Below, one piece after another: positions 10,407 through 21,848 of a stretch of 25,227 bases of DNA (position 1 is the stretch's first letter; each line of letters opens with the position of its first letter). The notes below the pieces were generated by a model. It was not told where the DNA came from and did not search any database. It saw nothing but the letters and a program-made list of their open reading frames with translations. Source of the stretch: a virus; the IMG/VR virus record IMGVR_UViG_3300025671_000478, positions 1 through 25,227 of that record. The stretch is one strand, 5' to 3'. Both the position numbers and the translations under genes were made by a program.

Positions 10407-10870
10407 TGTAATATAGCCGCACCCCTTCGCGTTCGCGCGTGATAGCATTCGATCGCGTTCGATACTTTTCACTCGGATTACTTTCGTTTCGATCTTCACG
10501 AAACGTTCACTTGACAACGGTCACATACGGACGTATTCGCGTACACGCGTCGCGTTACGCGCGCGCGGTTCCTTGTTATTTTGGCTCCGCTCAGGTGCGC
10601 ACGCGTCTACGAAATACAGCACGAATTGTCAACACCTACTCACGTTCAATCCGCTTTCTTCATACTATCCTAACAAATAACCCTATCGTTTACATGTTCA
10701 AAGTATGTAAACATGCACACAAACTCGTTTAATGATAACGAAACACCCGGATAACCAAGAAAAGCGTGATATCACACCACTTTTTTTGACCCCAAAAAAC
10801 GGCCTTTTTGATACCGTAGGGGCCGATTTGTTGGCATTCCCAAGAAAAACTTTCATCCGGATACAGAAAA
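10407..10870. other. Non-coding stretch with CG-rich section and inverted repeats
   Basis: No convincing gene in about 460 bases. 10425-10600 is full of CG dinucleotides and short palindromes, with alternating CG at 10557-10567. CGTTTCG at 10485-10491 is mirrored by CGAAACG at 10499-10505, five bases before a promoter-like TTGACA. GTTTACAT at 10688-10695 is mirrored by ATGTAAAC at 10705-10712. GTGATATCAC at 10766-10775 is a perfect palindrome. Words like the origin iteron (CCGGATA) occur at about 10747 and 10857. The stretch looks regulatory. Confidence 0.5.
10511..10539 (+). promoter_or_regulatory. Promoter candidate TTGACA-N17-TATTCG
   Basis: A perfect -35 box TTGACA at 10511-10516, 17 bases, then TATTCG at 10534-10539. 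The -10 box is imperfect. A 7-bp inverted repeat ends five bases upstream, as would fit an activator or repressor site. No gene follows closely. Confidence 0.35.
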
Positions 10871-10874
10871 ACAC

Positions 10875-10903
10875 TTGACGTAGGTCGTAGGGTGCCGTAA
10901 AAT
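10875..10903 (+). promoter_or_regulatory. Promoter TTGACG-N17-TAAAAT
   Basis: TTGACG at 10875-10880 and TAAAAT at 10898-10903 with 17-base spacing, close to the sigma-70 consensus. Transcription would start near 10910 and first make about 590 bases of non-coding, hairpin-rich RNA before the gene at 11501. Confidence 0.6.
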
Positions 10904-10909
10904 GGGTAC

Positions 10910-11470
10910 AGATCGAATGATTGTTACTACTTAGTAACTGATTCGTGAATGTTCTTTCTTACATATCGTAGTCTAGCAAGCCTGAAAAGGCGGATATATC
11001 TACACGAGGTGCGGGCAAATCACGTCCAACCTATGTTCTTTCTAAGTCTGAAAACCGGTAGCGCCCAGAAAGCGCGAAAACGCTAGTGTCCGGTAGCCCA
11101 CTTGTGGGCATATATCTAACCTACTACTACTCAATACAAAAGTAACTAGGGGGAAACTTACAAACCTTGGGATAGGTGTATCGAATGATACCGCCCGCGC
11201 GACTTATCAACGCGGGACGTGAAACCTGAAAATTCGGGGGTGAGGGGTGTTCTCCAATTATTGGAAAGGGCTGATAATCCGAGAAAATAGTTACGTAAAA
11301 TACGTGAGCGAAATTGTTGCGGGGGTATAGGCCGGATTATGTTCAACTACAAGTGTGGCGGGGGGAGAAATACCCCTTCTTTAAGGTAGCGCGAGGTGCG
11401 GGTGTAGTGGGTGAAAACTACACTTACGGGTTCGACTCCCGTGCTACTTTCAACGGACAAACGTCCGTCT
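10910..11470 (+). ncRNA. Candidate large structured RNA
   Basis: About 560 bases follow a good promoter with no credible ORF. Many perfect short stems are visible: GTTACTA/TAGTAAC at 10923-10938 inside CGAAT/ATTCG; GCCCAC/GTGGGC at 11096-11109; GTATC/GATAC near 11177-11191; CCCGCG/CGCGGG near 11194-11216; ACGTA/TACGT near 11293-11305; a tRNA-like 3' part at 11384-11450; and ACGGAC/GTCCGT at 11453-11468. ATGTTCTTTCT (10949 and 11033), CCGGTAGC (11055 and 11090) and CGAGGTGCGGG (11005 and 11392) each occur twice. Size, isolation and a tRNA-like end recall the large phage RNAs GOLLD and ROOL, but I cannot confirm the family. It could also be just a structured leader. Confidence 0.5.
11384..11450 (+). 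tRNA. tRNA-like element with abnormal middle
   Basis: The acceptor stem AGGTAGC (11384-11390) pairs with GCTACTT (11443-11449, one G-U pair). The T arm ACGGGTTCGACTCCCGT (11426-11442) has a perfect 5-bp stem and a TTCGACT loop, matching the tRNA consensus. Between them lies one perfect 7-bp hairpin (GTGTAGT/ACTACAC, 11402-11423) with an 8-nt loop GGGTGAAA, and too few bases for both a normal D arm and anticodon arm. If the loop is refolded, GAA (Phe) could be the anticodon, but position 32 and the D arm would be abnormal. The hairpin also resembles a D arm, as if the anticodon arm were missing. No CCA is encoded. It may be a tRNA mimic rather than a working tRNA. Confidence 0.5.
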
Positions 11471-11500: not shown

Positions 11501-11707
11501 ATGCGAAACCTACAAAATTGGGTCAATATCGAAACTGTAACGTCCTACGATGGGGTACGTGTATTCGTTCAAGATCAGGATGAATTCTATCTAGGCGCTG
11601 ACGTGTGGCGCAAGCTACGCCGGATCGGCAAGGTTGTAAGCCGTGGGGGTGATCTGTTCATGCAACAGAGTGAATTTTCCAAGCTACAAGCCGCAGACGT
11701 ACGATAA
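11501..11707 (+). CDS. Small early protein, 68 aa
   Basis: Begins MRNLQNWVNIETVTSYDGVR and ends QQSEFSKLQAADVR. A short beta-rich protein with alternating hydrophobic residues (VRVFVQDQDEFYLGADVW). It opens a series of four small genes separated by nearly identical 20-nt leaders. There is no Shine-Dalgarno; the A-rich leader TAAAACCGTAAAAATACC directly precedes ATG. I recognise no family. Such small-gene strings at the start of the early region often encode host-interaction proteins, but nothing in this sequence shows that. Confidence 0.7.
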   Translation: MRNLQNWVNIETVTSYDGVRVFVQDQDEFYLGADVWRKLRRIGKVVSRGGDLFMQQSEFSKLQAADVR

Positions 11708-12406: not shown

Positions 12407-12670
12407 ATGGAAATGAACGTTATTTTAGGCAAGAAACGCGCAGACGGAACCATGACCTTCGCCCTAAATATAGAGGGCAATTGTGTACAATTCGACGGCG
12501 AGGTAGGCGGGTCATCCATAGACGTATCATGGTGGATGCGAGGGCTCCCTCCGTTCACTACTATCGAATGCAAAAATCTAGTTGACATGATGGCGATGGC
12601 TGATTATGTTGCGGATTGGATCGACAAAAATGCGGACGAAATCCCTACATATCGGGAAGATTGCCAATAG
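12407..12670 (+). CDS. Early protein of unknown function, 87 aa
   Basis: Begins MEMNVILGKKRADGTMTFAL and ends DKNADEIPTYREDCQ. The first half is beta-rich (DGTMTFALNIEGNCVQFDGE), the second half helical (LVDMMAMADYVADWIDKNAD). It is acidic and has no membrane segment. The shortened leader TAAACCGGAAAATAAA precedes the ATG. The stop codon TAG at 12668-12670 touches the first base of the hammerhead ribozyme that follows, so its mRNA 3' end would be set by ribozyme cleavage 20 bases after the stop, leaving a UUCG hairpin. Function unknown. Confidence 0.75.
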   Translation: MEMNVILGKKRADGTMTFALNIEGNCVQFDGEVGGSSIDVSWWMRGLPPFTTIECKNLVDMMAMADYVADWIDKNADEIPTYREDCQ

Positions 12671-12724
12671 GCGAAACCCCTTCGGGGGTCTATGGATGGG
12701 TGGCTCCCTCCATACTGACGAGCC
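12670..12724 (+). ncRNA. Hammerhead ribozyme, type II (HHR1)
   Basis: All three conserved core strands are in the order of a type II (stem II open) hammerhead: GAA at 12673-12675; stem III ACCCC/GGGGT closed by a TTCG loop (12676-12689); cleavage base C at 12690 after GT; stem I TATGGA/TCCATA with a bulged T, an inner GGG/CCC and a 5-nt loop (12691-12714); CTGACGA at 12715-12721; and stem II formed by GGC (12670-12672) with GCC (12722-12724). Every core base matches the consensus CUGANGA...GAA...NUH. Predicted cleavage is between 12690 and 12691. Stem II has only 3 pairs. It lies between the 87-aa gene and the AAA+ ATPase gene, in the sense direction. Confidence 0.92.
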
Positions 12725-12764
12725 AAGCCAAACTAACTCTCACTTAAACCTTCGAGGTAACACT

Positions 12765-13877
12765 ATGCAATACGGCAAGATGAGCGTACCTGAGTTACGC
12801 AACCACATCCGCAACAACATGAACACCCGTGAAACATGGGTAGCAAGTGCTAGCAAATCAGATTGCTTGCGCTACATTCATCAGGGCAAACGGCCCATGC
12901 CGACGGCCGAGCCTCCCGTGATAGCACCGGCTCCGGCGGGCGATGCTAGCTCTCAGCTAGGGGCTCTGATCCAACAGATTGCGGGATCATCGGTCAACGA
13001 GGAGCGGGTTCGGGCTCTGATTCACGAGGAGACCAAGAACATCAAGCCTCACGTCACACGCTTTGTGATTCCAAACAAGCCGGATTACGATCTCAAAGGC
13101 GAGGTTGTACACTCAAAGACTCCCGCTCTGTTGGCTCTGTTGCAACTAGGGCCCGTGTGGATGCATGGCCCTTCGGGCTCCGGCAAGACAACGGGTGCCA
13201 AGAAAGCCGCAGACATACTAGGCCTCCCGTTCTATGCCATGAGTGCTAGCACGGACACCACCAAAGGTGACCTATTCGGGTACACCAAACCAAGTGATGG
13301 ATCGTACAAAGATACTCCGCTGTTCAACGCCTACACCAAAGGTGGAGTTATGCTACTCGACGAGGCGGACAACCTACGGCCTAGCCTATTCAAGATGTTG
13401 AAGATGGTCATGGGCAGTAGCAAAGCTAACTTCGACGGACAGATCGTAGATCGGCACGAAGATTTCAAGCTGATCGTGGCGGCCAACACGACGGGCGGCG
13501 GACGTGATGCCAAGTATGTATCGGCAATCGTGCAAGACTCCGCTACGGTAGACGAGTTTGGCATGCTCAATTGGGACTACTGCTACGACCTAGAACGTAA
13601 CGTTCTATCGAAGATCGGACTCGACGATGCTATCAGTGACGGACTGCACAAACTGTGGCTCACGTCCCGCATGAACATCGACGAGCAAGACAAGAAAATA
13701 CTTGCTACTCCTCGCTCGCTATTCATGACGGCAACAGCAATCAAGGCGGGGCTCAACGTATCCGATGCTATCAAGACCTACCTCACCTCCAAGTGGGGTG
13801 GCAAGGACGCGATCATGCAAGCTATCGGGTCTATTGACGACTCGCTCAAAGTAAACGTAGCAAGCCTTATTCCCTAA
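12765..13877 (+). CDS. MoxR-type AAA+ ATPase
   Basis: A 370-aa protein. I start it at the ATG at 12765, after HHR1, since the in-frame upstream extension runs through the previous gene and the ribozyme. Residues 1-45 may be a small DNA- or protein-binding domain (MSVPELRNHIRNNMNTRETW). A low-complexity P/A linker follows. The ATPase core has Walker A GPSGSGKTT at 135-143, Walker B VMLLDEAD at 195-202 and a sensor-1-like IVAANT near 237-242. It fits the dynein-related/MoxR branch (AAA_5), whose members act with VWA proteins to remodel or insert metal into targets. The next gene encodes a VWA-like protein, supporting this. The substrate is unknown. Confidence 0.88.
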   Translation: MQYGKMSVPELRNHIRNNMNTRETWVASASKSDCLRYIHQGKRPMPTAEPPVIAPAPAGDASSQLGALIQQIAGSSVNEERVRALIHEETKNIKPHVTRFVIPNKPDYDLKGEVVHSKTPALLALLQLGPVWMHGPSGSGKTTGAKKAADILGLPFYAMSASTDTTKGDLFGYTKPSDGSYKDTPLFNAYTKGGVMLLDEADNLRPSLFKMLKMVMGSSKANFDGQIVDRHEDFKLIVAANTTGGGRDAKYVSAIVQDSATVDEFGMLNWDYCYDLERNVLSKIGLDDAISDGLHKLWLTSRMNIDEQDKKILATPRSLFMTATAIKAGLNVSDAIKTYLTSKWGGKDAIMQAIGSIDDSLKVNVASLIP

Positions 13878-13905
13878 GGGTACGGGGGCTTCGGCCCCCT
13901 ACCTT
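13876..13905 (+). terminator. GC-rich UUCG hairpin after the ATPase gene
   Basis: GGGGGC-TTCG-GCCCCC with an outer extension (AAGG, TA pairing with TA, CCTT) begins at the stop codon. It has no U-run after it, so it may slow or stop polymerase only partly, or protect the 3' end of the RNA. It lacks the CTGANGA core and is not a hammerhead. Confidence 0.5.
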
Positions 13906-13934
13906 CTATCTCTCACACTCAAACGGTAACTGCA

Positions 13935-14819
13935 ATGCAAATCCTACAATCTACCAAGACATCACGAGTTTACTACTTCGACAGCCTATACGATGCCGTC
14001 AACCGCAAGACACCACAGGAATTCTACGATGCGGGCGGCGACCCCGAAGGCACCGAACAGACCTACTTCCATGGAGTGGCGCTCGATACATACAAGAGTG
14101 TGATCTTTGCCAACGAGCAATGCGAGGATCTCAGAAAGCGCAAGGCCGAATTTGACCACGAAATGATTACGCTTGACGCTCCCTCCCTCACGGACGGCGT
14201 GACGCTAGGCACCCAAGAGTACGGCGATGAGGTGTGGGACATGGTATCATTCATACAAGGCGAGGACGAGTGCATGCTCGACATGCGCTTCGACGTAGCG
14301 GCAACACCACACGTTCGCCTACTGTTCGACATCAGCGCAACTGCGAGCGTAGAAGAGTCGGCCATGATAGCACGAGCCAAGGCGTTCCTTGCCCTAGTGG
14401 ATGCGCTACATAAATCAGGCACCGCAGTAACCCTTGACGTGGCATTCGCCTCGTGCTACATTACGAGCAAGCGGTACAACGCAGTGCACATCGTCAACGT
14501 ACTCAAAAGCACAGAGCAAGTGGACATGCGCAAGATGTTCTACATACTTGGGTGCCGCGAGGGACTGCGGAGGATGATGTTCAAGATACAGGAAACATGC
14601 TATCACGAGACGAACAAGATGCTCAAAGATGCAAAGATCAAGGACACGGATTCGTATTGGCAAGGTCGCGGCCAAGGTAACAAAGAGTGGATGAGCGACG
14701 TGAACCTATCTGATCGGTACGACATGAGCGTATGCACCACGATGACACGCAACAATCACGGGCACGAGATGGCCGCCAACCTGATTAACAGAGCGCGTGA
14801 ACTGCGACTGATAGCGTAA
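13935..14819 (+). CDS. VWA-like partner of the AAA+ ATPase
   Basis: A 294-aa protein. Residues 127-136 (VRLLFDISAT) carry a MIDAS-like D-x-S-x-T motif at Asp132, Ser134 and Thr136 at the end of a hydrophobic strand. A long helix (SAMIARAKAFLALVDALHKS) and a second strand (TAVTLDVAFA) follow, the order expected for a von Willebrand factor A fold. A late VNVLKSTEQVDMRKMFYILG segment could supply further MIDAS loops. I recall related phage proteins as DUF7192 (from memory). MoxR ATPases and VWA proteins work as pairs, and these two genes are alone between the two ribozymes. The N-terminal 110 residues are unassigned. The start has CAAAC ten bases upstream of the ATG, like the TAAAC genes. Confidence 0.7.
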   Translation: MQILQSTKTSRVYYFDSLYDAVNRKTPQEFYDAGGDPEGTEQTYFHGVALDTYKSVIFANEQCEDLRKRKAEFDHEMITLDAPSLTDGVTLGTQEYGDEVWDMVSFIQGEDECMLDMRFDVAATPHVRLLFDISATASVEESAMIARAKAFLALVDALHKSGTAVTLDVAFASCYITSKRYNAVHIVNVLKSTEQVDMRKMFYILGCREGLRRMMFKIQETCYHETNKMLKDAKIKDTDSYWQGRGQGNKEWMSDVNLSDRYDMSVCTTMTRNNHGHEMAANLINRARELRLIA

Positions 14820-14839
14820 GGATTTCGGAGGGTGAGAGA

Positions 14840-14904
14840 GCCGAAAGGCGGGGGCTTCGGCCCCTGCCTCTGCGTAAGGATGGCAACCTGCGCACTGATG
14901 AGGC
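14840..14904 (+). ncRNA. Hammerhead ribozyme, type II (HHR2)
   Basis: Second complete type II hammerhead, same strand as HHR1: stem II GCC (14840-14842) with GGC (14902-14904); GAA at 14843-14845; stem III of 10 pairs AGGCGGGGGC/GCCCCTGCCT with a TTCG loop (14846-14869); cleavage base C at 14870 (CTC triplet); stem I TGCG/CGCA with an inner AGG/CCT and a 7-nt loop (14871-14894); CTGATGA at 14895-14901. The core matches the consensus fully. Stem sequences differ from HHR1 while stem design is kept, i.e. covariation between the two copies. Predicted cleavage is between 14870 and 14871. It lies between the VWA gene and the 106-aa gene. Confidence 0.93.
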
Positions 14905-14934
14905 AAGCCAATCAACCTAACCAATATCAATACC

Positions 14935-15255
14935 ATGATAGCACAGGAAGTAACACGCAACGAGTGGATCGACGCATTTGCAAGGGGCGAAGACGCATAC
15001 TTTTCGTACGAGGCGGCGGACGCACTGTACGACTACTATTGGGATCTATCCGACGGGACGGGCGAGACGATCTACCTCGACCGCGTAGCCGTGGGGTGCG
15101 AGTGGTCGGAGTACACGGAGGATGAGGCGCGCGAGCAGTACAAGGTAGACTACGACGAGGACGTAGAGATTGCGCTCGTCGACCGTGGCCTTGTCAGCTA
15201 CGCAATCAAGGTGCCCATGCACGGCAAGCCACACCACTACCTAGTCATGGACTAG
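14935..15255 (+). CDS. Acidic early protein, 106 aa
   Basis: Begins MIAQEVTRNEWIDAFARGED and is strongly acidic, with clusters of D, E and Y (YDYYWDLSDGTGETIYLDRV; YTEDEAREQYKVDYDEDVEI). The final part is less charged (YAIKVPMHGKPHHYLVMD). Strong acidity could indicate a DNA-mimic or protein-binding role, as in some anti-host proteins, but there is no direct evidence. It begins 30 nt downstream of HHR2, so after cleavage its mRNA would carry a 5'-hydroxyl and the ribozyme stem I. The octamer TGATAGCA overlaps the start codon. Confidence 0.7.
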   Translation: MIAQEVTRNEWIDAFARGEDAYFSYEAADALYDYYWDLSDGTGETIYLDRVAVGCEWSEYTEDEAREQYKVDYDEDVEIALVDRGLVSYAIKVPMHGKPHHYLVMD

Positions 15256-15265
15256 TAGGTAAACC

Positions 15266-15287
15266 GGTCGCCCCTTCGGGGGCGGCC
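15266..15287 (+). terminator. UUCG hairpin between early genes
   Basis: A 9-bp stem GGTCGCCCC/GGGGCGGCC (one T-G pair) closed by TTCG lies 10 bases after a stop codon. Only CTTCACTTT follows, so as a terminator it is weak; RNA 3'-end protection is an alternative. No hammerhead core is present. Confidence 0.45.
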
Positions 15288-20936: not shown

Positions 20937-21848
20937 ATGATTCTACGCAACGCTGATAGGCGTTCGTGGCTAACTATGGATCGCTTCATCTTTGATGACT
21001 CCCGTGTCGGAGGCGAGGAGATAGCCGTGCTATCATGGCTACTCTCCCGTCCCGACAGTTGGTCTCTGAACGTCAAGACATTGGGCTCCCGTCTAGGGTG
21101 GGGTCGAGACAAGACTTACAAGATCGTCAAGCGACTAGTAAGCCTAGGCTACATCACGCAAGAGACAAGGCGCGATGCGCAAGGACGGATCGTAGGGACG
21201 GACTATATCGTGCACGAAACCCCTCAAAACAGTACCAAAAATCCACATCCTGAATTACCGGATACGGCTGAACCGGATACGGATAAACCGGATACGGCTG
21301 AACCGGATACGGCAAATCAGGAAGCATATATAGATAATAATAATAGCAAGACAATGAGTGTAGTAAGTAATACTTATCACTCTCGTACCTTCGATCTGTG
21401 GTGGGACATGTACGACAAGAAGGTTGATCGCAAGGGTACGTTTGCTAAGTGGAGGAAGTTGAAGTCAGACGACATCGGACTGATTCTAAACCACACTCCC
21501 GAATACGTTATCGCTACACCGGAGGTGCAGTACAGGGCACATCCAAAAACCTACCTTAACCGTGAGTACTTCAAAACGTCTATCGAGCACCTTGTCGGAG
21601 GTAGATCTGTTCAAGGGCCTGCCAAAGCATATACGGGAGGCGTGCGTCAAGGAATACCAAATGGGAAAACAGGACTCGGCCCAAGGGAATTTCTCGCCGC
21701 TAGTGGATTCTCAGACGACGAGGCAGACAGGCTACTTGGAGCAAACCCAAGTGCTACATCCTTCCGACCCCAAGCTTTTGCTAGCAGAAGAGACGGACAT
21801 CTTCAAGGCGATAATGAAGATCGGCTTCTTGCTAGAAAAGCCGATTGA
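20937..21848 (+). CDS. Winged-helix replication initiator (O-like)
   Basis: A 303-aa protein. Residues about 12-95 form a winged helix: EEIAVLSWLLSRPDSWSLNV, then LGSRLGWGRDKTYKIVKRLV, then SLGYITQETRRDAQGRIVGT. A spacer with PDTAEPDTDKPDTAEPDTA is encoded by the iterons. A second domain follows (FDLWWDMYDKKVDRKGTFAK through HPKTYLNREYFKTS), similar to the C-terminal parts of phage replication proteins. As in lambda O, the protein probably binds the repeats inside its own gene and recruits the host helicase. The last 60 residues overlap the next gene by 188 nt in another frame. Confidence 0.75.
   Translation: MILRNADRRSWLTMDRFIFDDSRVGGEEIAVLSWLLSRPDSWSLNVKTLGSRLGWGRDKTYKIVKRLVSLGYITQETRRDAQGRIVGTDYIVHETPQNSTKNPHPELPDTAEPDTDKPDTAEPDTANQEAYIDNNNSKTMSVVSNTYHSRTFDLWWDMYDKKVDRKGTFAKWRKLKSDDIGLILNHTPEYVIATPEVQYRAHPKTYLNREYFKTSIEHLVGGRSVQGPAKAYTGGVRQGIPNGKTGLGPREFLAASGFSDDEADRLLGANPSATSFRPQAFASRRDGHLQGDNEDRLLARKAD
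21258..21375 (+). other. Probable replication origin with four iterons
   Basis: CCGGATACGG starts at 21258, 21273, 21288 and 21303, an exact 15-bp period. The five bases between copies are CTGAA, ATAAA, CTGAA. From 21323 the sequence turns AT-rich (ATATATAGATAATAATAAT), a likely unwinding element, up to about 21375. Iterons plus an AT-rich stretch inside the initiator gene is the arrangement of lambda-type origins. The repeat is helically phased only loosely (about 1.4 turns). Confidence 0.75.

Follow-up and report, generated by a model that had tools for sequence, protein, structure and literature searches.

Two type II hammerhead ribozymes around an ATPase gene and its neighbour

The question raised by this locus is whether two hammerhead ribozymes (HHRs), which are predicted to cut a phage transcript on both sides of exactly two genes, serve these two genes in particular or process the mRNA at gene boundaries in general. 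The analysed window, i.e. the whole stretch of 25,227 nt deposited in IMG/VR as IMGVR_UViG_3300025671_000478, possesses no end repeats and is therefore probably a fragment. The features of the region are listed below; stems, cores and loops were read from the sequence.

12407..12670, + strand: small upstream gene (87 aa) that matched no family; the stop codon TAG (12668-12670) reaches stem II of HHR1
12670-12733, + strand: HHR1, type II hammerhead ribozyme (RF02276, 36.1 bits; phage-trained model, 47.5 bits, E 1.2e-11; structure scanner)
GGC 12670-12672 / GCC 12722-12724, + strand: stem II of HHR1
GAAA 12673-12676 and CUGACGA 12715-12721, + strand: core of HHR1
CCCC-UUCG-GGGG and UAUGGA/UCCAUA, + strand: stem III and stem I of HHR1
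12690^12691, + strand: predicted cut of HHR1, with UC at 12689-12690
12701-12705, + strand: loop I of HHR1 (UGGCU), pairing with AGCCA at 12726-12730 in a type II pseudoknot (5 complementary bases)
12691-14870, + strand: RNA of 2,180 nt that would be freed by the predicted double cleavage, as deduced from the two cut sites
12765..13877, + strand: AAA+ ATPase, AAA_5 / MoxR-like (Pfam AAA_5, E 1.3e-14; phrog_249, 'porphyrin biosynthesis', CobS-like)
13882..13905, + strand: strong UUCG hairpin in the gap between the AAA and VWA-like genes (fold z -2.9), without ribozyme core
13935..14819, + strand: DUF7192 / phrog_1909 protein, predicted fold nearest to VWA domains
14840-14912, + strand: HHR2, type II hammerhead ribozyme (RF02276, 25.2 bits; phage-trained model, 35.1 bits, E 3.8e-8; structure scanner)
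GCC 14840-14842 / GGC 14902-14904, + strand: stem II of HHR2
GAAA and CUGAUGA, + strand: core of HHR2
GGCGGGGGC-UUCG-GCCCCUGCC and UGCGU/GCGCA, + strand: stem III and stem I of HHR2
14870^14871, + strand: predicted cut of HHR2, with UC at 14869-14870
14881-14884, + strand: loop I of HHR2 (UGGC), pairing with GCCA at 14907-14910 (4 complementary bases)
14935..15255, + strand: next gene (106 aa; phrog_9974, unknown function), starting 30 nt 3' of stem II of HHR2

At both sites the core GAAA ... UH^ ... CUGANGA is present according to the sequence and the structure scanner. Stems I and III are closed by loops and stem II is open, with 3, 5 and 6 pairs in stems II, III and I of HHR1 and 3, 10 and 6 pairs in those of HHR2 (scanner). 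Furthermore, a pseudoknot between loop I and the 3' tail is possible in both ribozymes, as it is in most natural type II HHRs, where the tail behind stem II takes part (Perreault et al. 2011, PMC3088659). A first-pass annotation of the sequence had proposed two canonical ribozymes at these positions, and the agreement of core, stems, topology, pseudoknot and covariance-model scores confirmed this. The dicistronic product of 2,180 nt with a hairpin at each end, which had been proposed as well, also agrees with the coordinates 12691-14870.

The two sites are not equal in every respect. HHR1 overlaps the upstream stop codon by a single base, and HHR2 begins 20 nt behind the stop codon of the DUF7192 gene. 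The cleavage triplet of HHR2 is CUC, which is unusual, since GUC was present in 217 of 229 viral HHRs among the matches listed. Because of this triplet and the lower score, HHR2 may cleave slowly.

Only the genes of the AAA+ ATPase and of the DUF7192 protein stand between the two predicted cuts. The AlphaFold2 model of the latter is modest (pLDDT 64.7); its best fold match was the VWA domain of NorD (Z 7.4, rmsd 3.6 over 157 residues), and a Foldseek search with the model gave no match at E <0.001. 'AAA+/VWA pair' is hence used here as a fair label, of which the VWA half is moderately supported.

Statistical support of the ribozymes

Both ribozymes share with family RF02276 the core, the three stems with an open stem II, the pseudoknot and the UC site. 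They differ from it in their scores of 36.1 bits (E 4.8e-4 over all families) and 25.2 bits, which lie below the curated value of 37 bits, a threshold set by the curators and not a structural feature; in addition, stem III of HHR2 is long and the cleavage triplet of this ribozyme is CUC instead of GUC. Since both scores are below 37 bits, an Rfam scan of the window at the gathering threshold gave no match, and a lax search was needed. A covariance model that had been trained on 14 other phage HHRs, the window being excluded, recognized both sites with the E-values listed above. When this model was applied to the whole window, no third HHR was detected, the next-best match having 9.5 bits. The structure scanner, which demands the core, the topology and minimum stems, gave 2 matches in the 25 kb of the window, whereas two control sets (3.3 Mb each), namely reversed sequences and sequences complemented without reversal, gave none. 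Judged by sequence, HHR1 and HHR2 are genuine type II hammerheads and not chance matches, and their cleavage is predicted. An earlier model derived from a sequence-only alignment comprised only 9 pairs and was set aside.

Occurrence of the ribozymes in related phages

Many phages possess the pair of AAA and DUF7192 genes, most of them without HHRs. No HHR was found near the pair in Tunturi_4, phiM5, Sephiroth, X2_24 and P106B and in the viral loci L456-459 and L461-465. Among the phages without HHRs near the pair are two Rhizobium phages, whose partner gene is more distant. The Manatee Spring podovirus (MW202803) carries one HHR a gene ahead of the AAA gene and no HHR behind the pair, and in locus L309 two HHRs flank another gene, which lies upstream. 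Three loci carry a HHR between the AAA and the DUF7192 gene (L454, same contig as L314, 6139-6188; L455, 2121-2170; L460, 6194-6243).

Base pairing in the stems of these three HHRs is preserved by compensatory substitutions, from C-G to A-U in stem III and from G-C to U-A in stem I, and the fold is thus under selection there. L455 and L460 were found through the similarity of their proteins, which avoids the pairing bias of the scanner. The strong covariation in alignment A4 was not counted, because its members had been picked by a scanner that demands pairing. Four relatives of the L314 lineage (63-67% AAA identity) lack the HHR and their AAA and DUF7192 genes abut, so that the ribozyme is dispensable in this lineage. 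These sequences hint that the complete HHR element was gained or lost precisely between the two genes. The genes abut in L456-L459, where the HHR is absent, in contrast to L454, L455 and L460, where it is present.

An AAA gene was found in only a few of 206 HHR loci among the matches listed. As far as the compared sequences indicate, HHRs are gained and lost at gene gaps, and in one lineage a HHR separates the very pair that is enclosed here. Protein searches of viral contigs with the AAA or the VWA-like protein of the window found no relatives, and none of the terminase relatives, which included two at 100% and two at 72-73% identity, covers the AAA region. No convincing HHR was detected in 80 loci of terminase relatives, where a weak match in L391 with stems of 3-4 pairs was discarded. 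A close relative of the window phage spanning the HHR region was thus not found by the protein and terminase searches.

These comparisons bear on the proposal that the ribozymes and the AAA+/VWA pair form a dedicated module, in which excision fixes the stoichiometry and stability of the two genes and selection maintains the bracket. The bracket around the pair is exact in the window, and AAA+ proteins of the MoxR type and VWA partners work as a complex, for example NorQ/NorD, the latter being the best fold match. However, a HHR separates the two genes in three loci, stands a gene upstream of the pair in the podovirus, flanks another gene in L309 and is missing in the many phages named above, and AAA genes are scarce in HHR loci. 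A module of this kind is therefore very unlikely. The first-pass annotation had tied the bracket to the pair and had itself named ribozymes at unrelated positions in related phages as the finding that would speak against it. This was seen in the comparison, in which the ribozymes did not accompany both genes; other phages place a HHR between the pair, upstream of another gene, or have none.

Survey of type II hammerheads in viral loci

At least 332 distinct type II HHRs were detected by the scanner in viral loci, which had been gathered by the type II pattern, so that the counts describe a habit and not a frequency or census. Among the matches listed, 229 viral HHRs were well formed and flanked, and 182 of these (79%) had a stop codon ≤20 nt from stem II, whereas this applied to 15% of random positions in the same loci. 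The median gap between stop codon and stem II was 2.5 nt, and a start with a ribosome-binding-site-like sequence followed the HHR in 201 of the 229, at a median of 27 nt further (both among the matches listed). A pseudoknot of at least four bases was found in 115 of these 229 listed HHRs. Within any one locus all HHRs among the matches listed lay on one strand, and neighbouring HHRs were spaced by a median of 592 nt (107 listed pairs). The spacing of 2,115 nt in the window is wide, yet inside the range of the survey. Both sites of the window obey the order of stop codon, HHR and ribosome-binding site, and the cluster layout with flanked genes is present as well, with two HHRs of the coding strand in gene gaps and a short block between them. 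The survey shows that the arrangement at gene boundaries is common in phages; it is widespread and keeps a tight order, in which the ribozyme follows the stop codon within a few bases and is itself followed by a ribosome-binding site. The ribozymes, their position, their topology and their commonness in phages can be read from these sequences.

The Streptomyces phages Paedore, Hank144 and Pablito (L452, L451 and L453) contain 13, 9 and 9 HHRs, respectively, in dense arrays with nearly one HHR per gene gap, which are unannotated in their records. Paedore and Pablito are recorded on S. lividans. No paper describing these arrays was found in the open-licence literature. In a search with a 4.8-kb query around HHR1, HHR1 was 79-83% identical to some HHRs of Streptomyces phages, and no DNA similarity was found for the rest of the query, flanks included. 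The arrays resemble the window in the ribozyme type, the location in gene gaps and the use of one strand. They differ in copy number, 9-13 with nearly every gap occupied as against two here, and no AAA/VWA pair is annotated there in the stretches examined. With their 9-13 HHRs, these cultured phages make the role of hammerheads directly testable. A further 8.5-kb locus, from IMGVR_UViG_3300038412_000035 (L262), contains nine HHRs according to the scanner. The ribozyme coordinates in IMGVR_UViG_2974780444_000001 (L168) are those in Hank144, which identifies both as the same phage.

Probable processing of the mRNA at gene boundaries and alternative explanations

It is probable (about 70%) that HHR1 and HHR2 act as self-cleaving mRNA-processing elements at gene boundaries of a rightward operon. 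The long transcript would fold each hammerhead during its synthesis, and each would cut itself once. The upstream RNA would receive a 3' end soon after its stop codon, with the UUCG-capped hairpin of stem III and a 2',3'-cyclic phosphate. The RNA behind the cut would begin with a 5'-OH and the stem I hairpin right ahead of the ribosome-binding region. Because the type II layout would place a hairpin on both new ends, these are presumably shielded against exonucleases, and the cut would split neighbouring genes into units that decay independently with guarded ends. The unit formed here would just happen to contain the AAA+ and VWA-like genes, and similar sites in related phages separate other genes. 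Cleavage in vivo, the protection of the ends and the purpose of the cut are what we infer from the arrangement. Uncoupling of the pair from the rest of the transcript, which the first-pass annotation had regarded as the minimum effect, is supported as a likely minimum consequence of the predicted cleavage.

Not every boundary of the operon would be cut, because other gaps carry plain hairpins without ribozyme (13882-13905 and 15266-15287). These strong UUCG hairpins, which follow two more genes of the operon, resemble stem III of the ribozymes and have no cores. A terminator role was weighed for the UUCG hairpins; the stems III of the HHRs have no T run behind them. An unmasking of the ribosome-binding site by cleavage was rejected, since the predicted access to the site of the AAA gene is unchanged (0.25 before and 0.23 after the cut).

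This unchanged access also argues against the HHRs being regulated switches, in which a ribosome terminating on the upstream gene would hide the 5' half of the ribozyme, so that translation would govern cleavage. Stem II lies at the stop codon or a few nt from it in HHR1 and in most viral HHRs among the matches listed, which is within the footprint of a terminating ribosome, and regulated cleavage was also raised by Perreault et al. However, the short gap is equally expected if the hairpin merely guards the 3' end, and HHR2 sits 20 nt past its stop codon. Cleavage timed by translation is possible with this layout; the HHRs as regulated switches are nevertheless rather unlikely. It is just as unlikely that the type II arrays of phages are in general a translation-coupled punctuation of mRNA, with terminating ribosomes timing the cut and the layout selected as the only one that leaves hairpins on both ends. 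Another explanation might be that the HHRs are neutral or selfish inserts, which collect between genes, the least harmful location, and are of no use to the phage. The same gap contains a HHR in some relatives and none in others, the similarity between HHR1 and the HHRs of Streptomyces phages ends at the ribozyme, as would fit a mobile or readily re-evolved element, and the hammerhead ranks among the ribozymes that evolve most easily. Against this, the fold is preserved through compensatory changes in the L314 lineage, and 9-13 copies per genome in uniform orientation fit use better than decay. Such an origin without function seems improbable.

Instead of being released as a linear unit, the excised RNA of 2,180 nt might have its two ends ligated, either by RtcB or in a reversal of the hammerhead reaction, and thereby become a circular mRNA, as the first-pass annotation had considered conceivable. 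The substrates of RtcB are 2',3'-cyclic phosphate and 5'-OH ends, and the ends expected here would suit this enzyme; translation of circular mRNAs is possible, too. In viroid and retrozyme circles, however, both ends stem from copies of one ribozyme. Hammerhead cuts flank the released RNA in those systems as well, but there the ribozyme copies belong to noncoding repeats and the RNA becomes a circle, whereas two distinct ribozymes surround coding genes in the window. After both cuts, the 5' end of the released RNA would consist of the 3' half of HHR1, and its 3' end of the 5' half of HHR2. Each half contributes a stem II strand GCC; these two strands do not pair with each other, and the joined halves are predicted to form a structure other than a hammerhead. 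Because the excised ends would not rebuild a hammerhead, a circular mRNA is disfavoured. This argument is specific to the pair in the window, since stem II pairing is possible in 79 of 107 neighbouring HHR pairs of other arrays among the matches listed; stem II orthogonality as a general rule of arrays was consequently rejected. Joining of the linear RNA by RtcB is chemically possible, but no sign of it was seen here. Perreault et al. (PMC3088659) searched for circular or spliced RNAs from HHR clusters and detected none, and a circular dicistronic mRNA must be regarded as extremely unlikely.

Relation to known systems

Processing at gene boundaries has precedents. In prophages, HHRs flank single genes or short gene blocks with several ribozymes per cluster (Perreault et al. 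2011, PMC3088659), and in three such clusters all ribozymes cleave in vitro, those of one cluster also in E. coli (PMC3088659). The statement of the first-pass annotation that no phage module of this design had been described can therefore not be maintained. Prophage clusters and the window have in common that several HHRs of one strand flank genes or short blocks, and cutting into mRNAs of gene or operon length has been proposed for them. They differ in the enclosed genes, for example ardA there and the AAA+/VWA-like pair here, and in the ribozymes, which are of types I-III there and both of type II here.

A mapped transcript end is available for the haloviruses HF1/HF2, where a 5' end lies ≤3 nt from the hammerhead cut (PMC3088659). 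As in the window, that HHR is located just 5' of an ATPase-type gene on an early polycistronic transcript. In contrast to the window, it has a variant core structurally like a high-Mg2+ one, it is a single site, and it occurs in an archaeal virus ahead of a helicase gene.

According to a review of 2017 (PMC6155905), small ORFs are often flanked by HHRs, whose association with phages is persistent and whose role in bacteria is open. Judged by its sequence, the locus is a further example of a layout known since 2011, to which it adds an unusual cargo.

Further observations in the window

Upstream of the ribozymes, about 0.7 kb (10740-11460) contain no convincing gene and precede the first small genes of the + strand. 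A tRNA-like stretch is located there at 11384-11455, with acceptor-like AGGTAGC/GCTACTT and T-arm-like ACGGG-TTCGACT-CCCGT; ARAGORN and Rfam made no tRNA call at this position. A near-identical leader (AAACCGGAAAATA..ATG) occurs at 11701, 11924 and 12381 ahead of three consecutive small genes upstream of HHR1 and is perhaps a shared ribosome-binding leader. Four tandem copies of the 15-nt repeat ACCGGATACGGCTGA are present at 21257-21331, inside a replication-initiation-like gene (20937-21848).
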